A DNA stretch of 45,615 nucleotides from Candidatus Daviesbacteria bacterium (lineage in GTDB: Bacteria; Patescibacteriota; Microgenomatia; Daviesbacterales; UBA10151), in NCBI GenBank assembly GCA_016176415.1, contig JACOXH010000003.1, positions 76,419 to 122,033 of the forward strand, in the 5' to 3' direction. A program made the translations under genes and the position numbers. Positions 11,455 to 16,482 of the stretch are shown here, piece by piece (within the stretch, counting starts at the first letter, position 1; every line of letters begins with the position of its first letter). A model generated the notes under the pieces. The model was given only the letters and a program-made list of their open reading frames with translations, did no database searches and was not told where the DNA came from.

Positions 11455-11946
11455 ATGAATAAGATAAACGAGTTACAAAGCATTAATACCAAACACACAT
11501 ATCTGACAGAAAAAGGCCTTATCGAAGTGAAGGCAGAACTAGAATTCCTTAAAAAGACCAGAAGAATACAAATTGCAGAAACTATCCATCAGGCCCGTGA
11601 GTACGGTGATCTGGCAGAAAATTCGGAATATGATGCAGCTTTGGAAGAACAGGCTATGGTGGAAAGCCGTATTTCTGAATTGGAAAATATCTTCAAAAAC
11701 GCCAAAGTTATAGAGAGTCAGCCAAGTCAGGATTTTGTGGTGATAGGATCCACAGTCAAAATAGAAATGGATGATGGTATTGATGAATTTACTATAGTAG
11801 GTCGGGTTGAAGCAGACCCCTCCAAAAAAAGAATCTCCAATGAGTCTCCTCTGGGACAGGCCCTGGTAGGAGCCAAAAAAGGTGAAGAGGTAGAAGTTAC
11901 AACCCCTATTATCAGATATAAGTGTAAAGTATTGGAAATTAAATAA
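11455..11946 (+). CDS. greA: Transcription elongation factor GreA
   Basis: A 163-residue GreA that rescues backtracked RNA polymerase by stimulating transcript cleavage. The N-terminal coiled-coil hairpin carries the acidic tip in REYGDLAENSEYDAA. The C-terminal domain (about 85-163) has the family runs VVIGSTVKI and SPLGQALVGAKKGEEVEV. About 12 extra residues precede the usual start (YLTEKGLIEVKAEL). The stop codon overlaps the ATG of the next gene by one base (TAATG), so the two are co-transcribed and perhaps coupled. Confidence 0.97.
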   Translation: MNKINELQSINTKHTYLTEKGLIEVKAELEFLKKTRRIQIAETIHQAREYGDLAENSEYDAALEEQAMVESRISELENIFKNAKVIESQPSQDFVVIGSTVKIEMDDGIDEFTIVGRVEADPSKKRISNESPLGQALVGAKKGEEVEVTTPIIRYKCKVLEIK

Positions 11947-13298
11947 TGTATTACCATAAGTTTGCCTTAGACAAAAAGGTCGCTCAAGACTTATCAAAAG
12001 AAGAAAAAGAATTACTCGTAATTCTTGAAGGGATTGTTAAAGATGCATCTTTAATCTATAAAATACAGCTGGAGAAAGGCTTTTACCCTAAAGGTGTTAC
12101 TGTAGAACAGCTCGAAAAAGCTGCAGAAAATGATAAAAGCATCGCTTCCCCCTATACAAATGTTGAAATGAAAAATGATCAACTGGAAGCAGTCAGTTAT
12201 CATAAATATTTTGCCGAACATCTTGAACCTATTGCTAAAAAAATAGAGAAAGCTGCCGGTATTTGCACAAATAAATCCCTGAAAGTTTCTTTGCAGGCAC
12301 AGGCCCGTTCTCTAATTGATGGTAGTTATGAAGAAGCGTATAACCAGTGGTTAAATGTAAAAAATTCCAATGTGGATTTTTATATTGGTTTTCTGGAAAG
12401 ACATTTAGATAAAGCTTTCTTTATTAAAAAAACACTGCAAGCACATGTTGGGATTGTAGATAAAAAATACTCCAAACTGATGGAGGATAATAAAGAAACT
12501 CTTTACAGCTCTGCTAAAATCAGTTTTAGTAAGTATCACTCTACAGGAATTCCCAAAAGAGGGGTCAGTGTTTTTGTAGAACACATTACAGCAATTGCCG
12601 GATATCCGGCCTATGTTTTAACTTCAGGTCAGTACTTTCCTTCTGATTTTGACATGGCTTTAAAATATGGTTCTAAAACAATTATTTATTATTCAATTGT
12701 TAAGTTTAAATTTAACAAATGGTACTATCCCATTTTCCATAAAATTTTTGAAAAAACTTTTGCTTCAAAGTATTCAAAAGACTTACTTTTTGAGGCAGCT
12801 CTTTGGTGCATATTCTTATATGAGTTAGGAAAGCAATTACATCGATACAATGGTGCCAGAAAAAGGTTACAAGACGCATTTGGTCCATTAGACGAGGCAA
12901 ATGGTTTTGTTTCGGGTATTGAGCATAGTAAGCATTTGGTAGTTAAGGGATTGCTTTCTCAAGACACGCTGGAGGCAATTATGATTATTCACATAATATG
13001 GATGCAGACAGATTGGTTGTTATTTAAAAACAACATTGCCAAACATGATCATATTATCGGGAGTTCTATTCTTTTTAATTCTTATTTATCACACGGAGCT
13101 TTACGGGAACAGGCAGGTATTTCCTGGCCTAATTTTTCAAGAATTTTCTTTGAGATTGAAGCGCTTTCTTATAAATTTGTTTATCTATTGCAGGAAGGTA
13201 CCTACGCGGAGGCCCGGGAGTTTATTGAGAAAATGGGCGATTTGAAAGTTTTAGAAAAGCTTTCCGTTAATTTGAAGAAAATAAGCACCAAAGTTTAA
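11946..13298 (+). CDS. M49 (dipeptidyl peptidase III)-like protein lacking the zinc motif
   Basis: A 450-residue, mostly helical soluble protein with no signal peptide. Several segments resemble the bacterial branch of peptidase family M49: VDFYIGFLERHLDKAFF (family IGPxExYxDxLF), LQAHVGIVD, YFPSDFDMALKYGSKTI (family N-x-P-N-D...GSK), and the pair LYELGKQL (290-297) / GPLDEANGFVSGI (313-325), which fall where HELxH and EExKAD should be. Here the zinc-binding histidines would be Y292 and K296, and the final Asp is F321, so it is probably catalytically dead. The start overlaps greA. A pseudo-peptidase with a binding role is inferred; the family call comes from remembered patterns only. Confidence 0.5.
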   Translation: MYYHKFALDKKVAQDLSKEEKELLVILEGIVKDASLIYKIQLEKGFYPKGVTVEQLEKAAENDKSIASPYTNVEMKNDQLEAVSYHKYFAEHLEPIAKKIEKAAGICTNKSLKVSLQAQARSLIDGSYEEAYNQWLNVKNSNVDFYIGFLERHLDKAFFIKKTLQAHVGIVDKKYSKLMEDNKETLYSSAKISFSKYHSTGIPKRGVSVFVEHITAIAGYPAYVLTSGQYFPSDFDMALKYGSKTIIYYSIVKFKFNKWYYPIFHKIFEKTFASKYSKDLLFEAALWCIFLYELGKQLHRYNGARKRLQDAFGPLDEANGFVSGIEHSKHLVVKGLLSQDTLEAIMIIHIIWMQTDWLLFKNNIAKHDHIIGSSILFNSYLSHGALREQAGISWPNFSRIFFEIEALSYKFVYLLQEGTYAEAREFIEKMGDLKVLEKLSVNLKKISTKV

Positions 13299-13303
13299 AT
13301 TTT

Positions 13304-13873
13304 CTATATTTCCTTTCCTACTTCAGCAGGGGAAATTTGATGAGCTTCCCAAAATCTGTTTAAACCAATAATTGCTTCAGTGCTGCGTCGTAAAATTAAC
13401 TGCTGATTCCCTGTTACCCCTGCAAGGGCTACTCTTGAAACAGCGGCAGCAGCAGATTCGCCAAGTTTATTAACAGGCACTACAGCATCTTTTTGTTCCG
13501 CGTAAACTTCATCAATTGCTTTAAATAATACAGCAGGGGTAATATCAGCTATAACACAGCCTACCATCAGGTGATAAAGTGCCTGGGCAGACTCTTCAAT
13601 AATATTCTCTTTATTTTTAAATGGTGATTGGGCAATCTCAACAGCCTCTTCCAGTAATTTGTCACTAATGCCTGCAGGTTTTGTTAAATTACCTTTGGTT
13701 AGAATTTTTTCAGGTATAATATTGGGGTCTAGGATTTGAGGGGTTTTAGATACCCAGCCGGTATTTAATAATTTAACCGTGGTTGAATTCGGATCTTGAG
13801 GAGTTTGATCCCTTCTTTGAATAATAGTTTCGTGTATACGGAGTAAATCTGGTTCGAGTTCTCTTAATCTCAT
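13304..13873 (-). CDS. HisE/MazG-like pyrophosphohydrolase-fold protein
   Basis: A 189-residue protein whose centre (about 73-125) matches phosphoribosyl-ATP pyrophosphohydrolase: KLLEEAVEIAQSP, then ENIIEESAQALYHLMVGCVIADITPAVL, like HisE EExxEV...EEAADLLYHLLVLL. The usual Asp after EEAA is Gln (ESAQALYHL), which could weaken metal binding. The protein is longer than normal HisE (about 100 residues), with extra N- and C-terminal parts, the latter Ala-rich. It is divergent to a HisG-like gene, the enzyme preceding HisE in histidine synthesis, and that pairing supports the call. A nucleotide-cleaning MazG-type role is the alternative. Confidence 0.6.
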   Translation of the reverse strand: MRLRELEPDLLRIHETIIQRRDQTPQDPNSTTVKLLNTGWVSKTPQILDPNIIPEKILTKGNLTKPAGISDKLLEEAVEIAQSPFKNKENIIEESAQALYHLMVGCVIADITPAVLFKAIDEVYAEQKDAVVPVNKLGESAAAAVSRVALAGVTGNQQLILRRSTEAIIGLNRFWEAHQISPAEVGKEI

Positions 13874-14007: not shown

Positions 14008-14856
14008 ATGAGTCTCGATTTAGAAAGAGCAGGAAAATTAAGAATACTGATACCGGATGGAAAGCATGCCGGAGATAAAGTTGCCGGATTATTGAGCAGC
14101 GTAGGAGTTCCTATTGAGTGGCGAACAAATGGTAACCTGCATATTAAGTTTAACGGCAACGAAGGTGATTTAAGTCTTACAGTTGTTAAAAATCGCGCTA
14201 TTTCCCCGTATATTGCTGAAGGCAGATATCCGGTAGCATTTACTACGAGCGATAGAGTGCTTGATTATATGGCACTTGCCACAATGATTGATGGCAATCT
14301 TCCTACAGATATTATTGAGGTTGCAAGATTTAATGAGTTTAATTCAAGACTTCGGGTAAGCTTACTAACCAGAGATAATCCTGAAGATGATGAAAGATAT
14401 AAAACCCCGCAAGACTTAAGAGGTAAAAGAGTGCTGACTTCTTACATGGGGTTAGGTACCCGATTCTTCAGAGCTTGTTTCCCTGACGATTCGGTGATAC
14501 CTGTTGAATTTGACGGAAGGATTGATGGTAAAGAAGAAGGGTTGGTAGCAGAAGGGGATGCTGAAGCGGCAATAGTGTCGGTAGATACCGGTAGCGCCAT
14601 GAAAACAAATAGTTTAAGAGAGCTTGCAGTGGTTTTGCCACCAGGCGAGTCTCAAATAGTACTTATATGTAATTCTATTTTTTATAAAGATAATAAACCT
14701 CTTGTAGATCAGTTTGTATTAAGACTTCAAGAAAATAATAAATCAAATGGAGTTGATAAAATAATTAAAGAAGTTGCGAAAGAAACAGCAACTGCAAACC
14801 GTTTTAATCTATCAGGCAAGTTTGGGTTTGTTAGCCAGATTATTGGTGGTAGATAA
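14008..14856 (+). CDS. ATP phosphoribosyltransferase (HisG)-like protein
   Basis: A 282-residue protein following the HisG pattern from end to end: LRILIPDGKHAGDKVAGLL (family LRIALPKGRL), VKNRAISPYIAEGRYPVAFTTSDRVLDY (family vRxxDIPxYVxxGxxDLGITGxDxL), DLRGKRVLTSYMGLGTRFF, and the phosphoribosyl-binding segment EAAIVSVDTGSAMKTNSL (family DAIVDIVSTGxTLRANGL). HisG joins PRPP to ATP as the first step of histidine synthesis. No other his genes lie in the window except the divergent HisE-like gene. Several motif residues differ from the canonical set, so the substrate could differ. Its leader carries a terminator-like hairpin. Confidence 0.78.
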   Translation: MSLDLERAGKLRILIPDGKHAGDKVAGLLSSVGVPIEWRTNGNLHIKFNGNEGDLSLTVVKNRAISPYIAEGRYPVAFTTSDRVLDYMALATMIDGNLPTDIIEVARFNEFNSRLRVSLLTRDNPEDDERYKTPQDLRGKRVLTSYMGLGTRFFRACFPDDSVIPVEFDGRIDGKEEGLVAEGDAEAAIVSVDTGSAMKTNSLRELAVVLPPGESQIVLICNSIFYKDNKPLVDQFVLRLQENNKSNGVDKIIKEVAKETATANRFNLSGKFGFVSQIIGGR

Positions 14857-14916: not shown

Positions 14917-16482
14917 ATGTATTGGGCTGACAGGGTAGCAAAAGAAATAATAGATTCAGGAAAATTCAAACCATATTGGGTGGATGATATGTTCACCCCT
15001 TCAGGTTTTGCGCATATTGGTTCTTTAAGAGGGCCTTTGGTACATGATTTAATCTACAAAGCTTTGAAGCATGCAGGTGTAGAGGCAACTTTTAGTTTTG
15101 TGATCAATGATTTTGATCCTATTGATGGTTTGCCTGAAGACCTACAGAAAGATTTTTCCAAATATTTAGGTTTTCCTTTAAGACAAGCTCCTTCTCCAAA
15201 AGAAGGTTTTGAATCCTTTGCTGCATATTTTGCAGATGATTTTAAAAATGTGCTTGCCAGTTTGGGAGTAAAGCCTGTTTTTTATTCTTCATATGATATG
15301 TATCATGAGGGTAAGTTTGATGTGGCAGTAAGGATTGCTTTGGATGATGCAGATAAAATTCAGGATATTTATCAGAAAGTCAGTGGTAGTAAAAAGAAAG
15401 AAGCAGGTTGGTTGCCTCTGCAGGTGATTTGCGAAAACTGTGGTAAGTTAGGCACGACAAGAGTACATAATTGGGATGGCAAAACTGTGGCATACACTTG
15501 TGAGATAAATATGGTTAAGTGGGCTCAAGGGTGTGGGCATTCAGGTAGAATCTCACCATTTGGTGGAAATGGAAAGCTGCCATGGAAAGTTGATTGGCCT
15601 GCACACTGGATGGTTTTGGGGATTACTATTGAAGGGGCAGGAAAAGACCATGCATCAGCGGGCGGATCGATGGATATTGCCAGACAACTTGTTAAGGAAG
15701 TTTTCCATATTGATCAACCATATAACTTCCCGTATGAACATTTCTTAATTGGTGGTAAGAAAATGTCTTCGTCAAAAGGTTTGGGATTTAAAGCAAGGGA
15801 TGCGCAAGCCCTTCTTCCTGTAGAAGTTGCAAGGTTTCTTTTTACAAGGACTGATTACAGACAGGCTTTGGAATTTGATCCAATGGGGACAATGGCTATA
15901 CCGGATTTATTTGATGAATATGACAGGTGTTATGAGTCATGGATAGAAGGTTCTAATGAGGATTTTGCCAGAGTTTTTGAGATGTCTCTAATAGGTGATC
16001 CTCCTCCTAAAGAAAAAACCTTGTTACCAAGATTCAGAGATGTTGTTAACTACATTCAAATGCCCAATATTGATATTCTGAAAAAATATGCGGAAATAAA
16101 TGGTAAAGAGTTAACAAAAACAGAAACAGATATTATTAATGAACGGGTCAAATATGCCAGGATTTGGCTGGAAAAATATGCACCTGATGAGTTTAAGTTA
16201 CAAATAAGTGAAACCTTGCCTGAAAAAGCAAAAGATTTAACAGAGGAGCAAAAAGAGTTTCTTGTAAAAGCTGTTAATTTAATTGAACAAAATGATGATC
16301 CTGAAAAGCTGCAACTTGCTTTATATAATTTAACAAAAGAATTAAAAGCTGATGCCAAAAAATCTTTCTCTGCTCTCTATATTGCTTTAATTGGTAAAGA
16401 ATTTGGTCCAAAAGCTGCATGGTTTTTACTGCAATATCCTAAGGAAAAAGTGATTAACAGATTAAAAGAGGCTGCAAAATGA
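14917..16482 (+). CDS. lysS: Class I lysyl-tRNA synthetase
   Basis: A 521-residue class I (archaeal-type) LysRS. The Rossmann catalytic core has the HIGH motif as H33-I-G-S36 in FTPSGFAHIGSLRG and the KMSKS motif as K282-M-S-S-S286 in IGGKKMSSSKG. A zinc-knuckle-like insertion has C172-x2-C175 and C195...C206. The C-terminal part (about 330-521) is helical, as in the family. Class I LysRS is typical of archaea and scattered bacteria and replaces the class II enzyme. The 3' end overlaps the HD-domain gene by 4 nt. Confidence 0.96.
   Translation: MYWADRVAKEIIDSGKFKPYWVDDMFTPSGFAHIGSLRGPLVHDLIYKALKHAGVEATFSFVINDFDPIDGLPEDLQKDFSKYLGFPLRQAPSPKEGFESFAAYFADDFKNVLASLGVKPVFYSSYDMYHEGKFDVAVRIALDDADKIQDIYQKVSGSKKKEAGWLPLQVICENCGKLGTTRVHNWDGKTVAYTCEINMVKWAQGCGHSGRISPFGGNGKLPWKVDWPAHWMVLGITIEGAGKDHASAGGSMDIARQLVKEVFHIDQPYNFPYEHFLIGGKKMSSSKGLGFKARDAQALLPVEVARFLFTRTDYRQALEFDPMGTMAIPDLFDEYDRCYESWIEGSNEDFARVFEMSLIGDPPPKEKTLLPRFRDVVNYIQMPNIDILKKYAEINGKELTKTETDIINERVKYARIWLEKYAPDEFKLQISETLPEKAKDLTEEQKEFLVKAVNLIEQNDDPEKLQLALYNLTKELKADAKKSFSALYIALIGKEFGPKAAWFLLQYPKEKVINRLKEAAK

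Follow-up and report, generated by a model that had tools for sequence, protein, structure and literature searches.

What would keep a protein of the dipeptidyl peptidase III (DPP III, family M49) type directly behind the gene for the transcription factor GreA, once the histidines that hold the catalytic zinc have been replaced? This question is raised by the window, i.e. the whole 45,615-nucleotide stretch of a Candidatus Daviesbacteria genome that was analysed, whose named close relatives are Daviesbacteria and Curtissbacteria, ultra-small candidate-phylum bacteria of the Microgenomates type. The gene pair and the residues of interest lie at the following positions.

11455-11946, plus strand: greA, 163 amino acids, with a canonical acidic tip (REYGDLAENSEY) according to the tip alignment
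11944-11948, plus strand: TAATG, greA stop and M49 start, overlapping by 1 nt, as read in the sequence
11946-13298, plus strand: M49 protein with DPP III fold that lacks the zinc histidines ("dead" M49), 450 amino acids, ATG start
12537-12545, plus strand: H198-S-T200, conserved loop of the dead clade with invariant H198; a low-confidence loop in the AlphaFold model
12819-12833, plus strand: destroyed HExxH motif, Y292-E-L-G-K296, aligned to H379-E-I-S-H383 of Caldithrix DPP III
12819-12821, plus strand: Y292 codon
12831-12833, plus strand: K296 codon
12840-12842, plus strand: H299, invariant in the dead clade, mostly L, V or I in intact relatives
12894-12896, plus strand: E317, the third zinc ligand (Glu412 of Caldithrix DPP III), kept
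12906-12908, plus strand: F321, where the second motif would end in Asp
12924-12932, plus strand: H327 and K329, invariant in the dead clade

The start of the M49 frame within the greA stop codon, remarked upon in the preliminary description of this DNA, is visible in the sequence itself, as the final letter of the TAA stop doubles as the first letter of the M49 ATG. The translated frame likewise carries Y292, K296 and F321 where that description had placed them. The window GreA matches GreA_GreB_N (4.6e-24) and the C-terminal domain (3.4e-22) in Pfam and scores above the cut-off of the NCBIfam GreA model.

Searches of Pfam and NCBIfam did not detect the window M49 protein itself; L013, a sister protein from the same slot with an intact zinc motif, passes Pfam Peptidase_M49 with 24.8 bits (cut-off 21). 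By phmmer, the window protein is related to the DPP III enzymes of Caldithrix abyssi (6eom, 9.3e-21) and Corallococcus (5zum, 5.6e-13), and a family profile built from 42 relatives reaches 4e-75 and 3e-61, respectively, with the HE and E motifs aligned column for column. The AlphaFold model (pLDDT 92.6, pTM 0.91) finds DPP III as its best match in the PDB with Foldseek (E 1e-22, TM 0.81). An unrelated fold is rejected, because ranks 1 to 17 are all DPP III. The M49-like nature proposed in the preliminary description is thus confirmed by both the profile comparison and the structure search: the window protein is a remote M49 homologue with the two-lobed DPP III fold. Its fold agrees with that of the Caldithrix and Corallococcus enzymes (TM 0.81-0.84 on the query), the sequences are related over residues 45-440, and the third zinc Glu is common to them, but the window protein is only about 20% identical to these enzymes, has a shorter N-terminal part (450 versus about 550 amino acids), has replaced both zinc His and both substrate Asn, and is encoded behind greA.

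In Caldithrix DPP III, His379, His383 and Glu412 are the zinc ligands, Glu380 is the base, and Asn321 and Asn324 hold the substrate backbone (PMC5805324). In the profile alignment, Y292 and K296 fall on His379 and His383, E293 on Glu380 and E317 on Glu412, so that two of the three zinc ligands are gone; Y230 and S233 stand for Asn321 and Asn324, both of which are lost. Accordingly, the HExxH/HExxGH motif for zinc binding and catalysis is absent, and the second motif (EExxAD) reads DEANGF, with the zinc-binding Glu kept and its neighbours changed. E317 is invariant in the 42-sequence alignment (A3), and Y292 and E293 are invariant in 8/8 sister genomes. Among all dead members, the two zinc histidines are replaced by Y and K/R/L in the eight from the GTDB family of the window (family 1) and by T/Y and K/Q/R in the four from family 6, in which E293 has also become S, G or A. 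The Glu412 position is kept in 11 of the 12 (H in one family-6 member), and Asn321 is lost in all 12. The clade has invariant residues of its own: H198, H299, S323, H327, K329 and F402.

The preliminary description had called the zinc motif destroyed, a claim that stands for Y292 and K296. It had also cited F321 in place of an Asp, but this residue is weak evidence and was dropped as a sign of destruction, because relatives with intact zinc motifs likewise lack the Asp and have T, S, N or Y there. From the alignment we infer that the window protein has lost peptidase activity. The suggestion that it binds peptides is possible but weakened, since both residues that would hold the substrate backbone have been lost.

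Scanning genome contigs with the window protein alone returned no relative; with the alignment as query, nine named relatives were found. An M49 gene is present in 24 of the 45 family-1 genomes. Its dead type, with the pattern Y-E-x-x-x-x-L-H, occurs in eight species of seven genera, and four genera of family 6 carry a dead type in which HE is wholly absent. In the M49 tree, these 12 genomes from two families form one clade (SH-aLRT 99), separate from the intact types, an HExxR type, the HExxE type of other classes and a second M49 copy (M49b) discussed below. Thus, the dead type is old and arose once. Apart from copies truncated where a contig stops, the gene is full-length in every member. 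Between the window and G044, codon positions 1, 2 and 3 are 68, 80 and 41% identical, and the sister pair G014 and G044 shows a dN of 0.23 against a dS of 2.4 (dN/dS about 0.1). The conservation supposed in the preliminary description is therefore real, as a single clade of 12 genomes has lost its catalytic residues and is under purifying selection. We consider it very probable that the window gene encodes a conserved pseudoenzyme that is not a peptidase. Decay towards loss, in line with the missing catalytic residues and the patchy presence of the gene, is contradicted by the full-length members, the low dN/dS, the codon pattern and the age of a clade that spans two families, and we give it next to no credence.

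Daviesbacteria-like and Curtissbacteria-like sisters of the dead-type genomes encode, in the same slot behind greA, an M49 protein of the same length and about 30% identity that differs in its intact HExxH and Glu (exceptions are one NExxH and one HDxxH) and in its partner gene, which encodes a GNAT-like protein or a DUF885/M32-like zincin. In the seven intact proteins of family 6, H383 is present in all and H379 in six, with N in one. Dead and intact types take each other's place behind near-identical greA genes. In one genus, G042 and G043 share 89% identity in GreA, 91% in an HD protein and 83% in LysS but 31% in M49, because one copy is intact and the other dead; window and G033 likewise share 82% in GreA and 84% in SerS but 31% in M49. 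M49 pairs of the same type are 56-71% identical, and GreA is 71-89% identical across the pairs that swap types. SerS served as the reference tree instead of GreA, whose tree has too few supported branches. The dead state requires one change on the M49 tree versus seven changes for seven dead rows on the SerS tree, and a constraint holding the dead rows together on the SerS tree was rejected (AU p 1e-57). Although SerS itself may have been transferred between lineages, the comparison within one genus stands without it. This switching indicates that alternative forms of M49 are exchanged at the greA slot.

In all 46 loci whose upstream sequence could be read, the gene directly before M49 encodes a Gre factor, and the junctions are commonly overlaps of 1 or 4 nt or small gaps. 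The cases that are not linked to Gre belong to other M49 lineages: in G452 it is the canonical M49, in G659 a longer homologue. The tie to a transcription factor gene seen in the preliminary description is thus real, but it is not unique to the dead form; many relatives have an intact HExxH, and all readable ones are linked to Gre. In families 64, 191 and 193 the Gre-M49 pair lies beside trmD (named from sequence), in a neighbourhood unlike that of the window; the gene order in families 48, 128 and 160 is canonical Gre, second Gre, M49. The pairing of M49 with Gre paralogues in unrelated neighbourhoods is the strongest sign that the linkage goes beyond synteny with lysS. By tip alignment, the GDLxEN tip is gone from the Gre next to M49 in families 64, 191, 193 and 128; that Gre has a near-canonical tip in family 48 and a tip with a changed Asp in family 160. 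Pfam still recognises both Gre domains in the tip-altered paralogues, although one of these scores below the cut-off for the N-domain. In other candidate-phylum classes, paralogues with a lost or altered tip lie directly before HExxE-type M49 genes in L148 (2802-3269), L149 (2909-3376), L145 (3915-4370), L146 (4578-5042) and L152 (3160-3633). Gfh1 and Rv3788, Gre-like inhibitors of RNA polymerase, set a precedent for a change of function among Gre paralogues; the likeness concerns the Gre partner and not M49, and we know of no M49 link for either of them. A limited literature search, with most subscription journals outside it, found neither an M49-Gre link nor a dead M49 clade.

Within family 1, greA is present in 24 of 24 genomes with M49 versus 9 of 21 without it (Fisher 1e-5, uncorrected for kinship). 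As greA had no match in 12 of the 45 genomes and is dispensable in this family, loss of the operon as a whole could mimic such co-occurrence. The acidic tip of GreA is altered in several genomes of the family that lack M49 (L127, L128, L129, L130 and L131), and GreA looks to be decaying in the M49-less lineages, with kinship uncontrolled. In M49-less genomes, lysS comes directly after greA wherever the downstream sequence can be read (nine contigs; one ends at greA).

The content of the slot between greA and lysS varies. In the window, M49 is followed by these genes.

13304-13873, minus strand: PRA-PH gene
14008-14856, plus strand: divergent HisG-like gene
14917-16482: lysS, class I (archaeal type, TIGR00467)

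No HisD was found in the 84%-complete window genome despite the PRA-PH and HisG-like genes; related HisG-like genes occupy the same slot in G044, G014 and G043. Several sister genomes have a class II lysS at the same place, so that the interval swaps the LysRS class too. M49b stands behind a degenerate first copy (dead or HExxR) in 9 of 14 genomes versus 1 of 21 behind an intact one (Fisher 2e-4, with only three or four informative independent pairs and a sign test that is not significant). It belongs to M49 by profile comparison (hhalign 5e-53), and eight of the nine copies behind a degenerate M49 have HExxH. Behind intact M49, a DUF885/M32-like HExxH zincin is found in family 6 (7/7) and in two family-1 genomes (G016 and G008); the idea that it is a divergent M49 copy was rejected on a profile comparison probability of 1% and a differing predicted fold. 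The other 12 intact family-1 genomes encode in this place a weakly GNAT-like, very fast-evolving protein of about 300 amino acids (L187, 2408-3346; L188, 2525-3415; and relatives). The HExxH zincin behind intact greA-M49 pairs, with its DUF885/M32-like predicted fold, forms an unannotated family of about 460 amino acids with an EGxAQT-type motif and without a Pfam match (L068, 4055-5446; L070, 2077-3576; L184, 2315-3688; and relatives).

These neighbours bear on two alternative explanations. The dead M49 might be the non-catalytic subunit of a two-component peptidase with M49b, its catalytic partner having been lost from lineages such as that of the window; the mitochondrial processing peptidase, an alpha/beta pair, provides the model. 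The preference of M49b for degenerate copies, its own M49 nature and the other HExxH zincin behind intact copies would fit such a division of labour, but the few independent pairs leave the sign test short of significance, and no other M49 was found at E<=10 in the 84%-complete window genome, nor a second one in G044, G014 and G004 (each at least 92% complete). The known DPP III enzymes, to our knowledge, act without a partner subunit. We regard this explanation as unlikely. Of similarly low, slightly smaller probability is that the protein does unrelated work in the cytosol and merely hitch-hikes behind greA, where it would benefit from steady expression at a recombination-prone site flanked by greA and lysS. 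The plasticity of the interval, in which M49 type, M49b, zincin, GNAT-like and HisG-like proteins and lysS class all vary among sisters, and the direct succession of greA and lysS where M49 is missing agree with this. The trmD-Gre-M49 arrangement nonetheless shows the pair being kept in another neighbourhood, and in other classes M49 follows the duplicated Gre and not the canonical one.

A third possibility, which we consider quite improbable, is that the fold has been re-used for other chemistry, with a new site built from H198, H299, H327 and K329 together with E293 and E317. The invariant His and Lys residues of the clade invite this idea, and Foldseek also matches the model to PolE structures (E 3e-6). 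PolE/DUF6421 is a DPP III-like fold turned into an iron- and pterin-dependent oxidase with an HE/DxxHxnE metal motif, and thus a precedent for changed active-site chemistry (PMC12614342). PolE is an actinobacterial amino-acid oxidase which retains its metal motif, and it is not known to us to have a Gre link; the window protein lacks both His of this motif. Moreover, judged from helix numbering, H299 and H327 would lie towards opposite ends of a helix pair and are unlikely to share one site, and E293 is S, G or A in family-6 members, one of which has H in place of E317. The role of tail binder that the preliminary description had entertained found no support, and a phage role was rejected: one scan of viral contigs with the dead-clade alignment as query found no relative, and the neighbourhood (greA, lysS, HD, serS) is one of housekeeping genes. 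A known anti-phage defence protein was rejected as well, as no PADLOC model matched the window M49 protein.

In the explanation that we prefer, a single loss of the zinc site preceded the divergence of the two Microgenomates-type families (Daviesbacteria-like and Curtissbacteria-like), and the dead M49 has been retained ever since for a task other than hydrolysis. It would be translated together with GreA from overlapping codons, and its two-lobed cleft would most likely not cut but bind or regulate a partner. GreA, or RNA polymerase with GreA bound, is the candidate partner, because a Gre gene precedes M49 even where greA lies in unrelated neighbourhoods or has been duplicated; we propose this identity tentatively, as something that falls below an even chance. 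The explanation as a whole, from the single loss of the zinc site through the conserved pseudo-peptidase to the module acting on GreA or RNA polymerase, comes close to an even chance without reaching it. Since the M49 types swap behind a conserved GreA, any specific interface with GreA must be common to both types or absent, and binding as well as physical contact with GreA are suggested here by gene order and fold. In a broader and rather doubtful reading, a DPP III-fold protein would be the dedicated partner of the RNA-polymerase-tuning Gre factor, with alternative forms exchanged between species at the greA slot; such a Gre-M49 module would take in both the ancient dead branch and the odd HExxE-motif branches.

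M49 has so far been studied as a peptidase family, and a dead DPP III beside greA offers a concrete candidate for a new protein with a link to transcription. The Gre-M49 pair persists across several classes of bacteria that for the most part resist cultivation, and the swap of dead and intact forms in sister genomes amounts to a natural experiment on the purpose of the zinc site.
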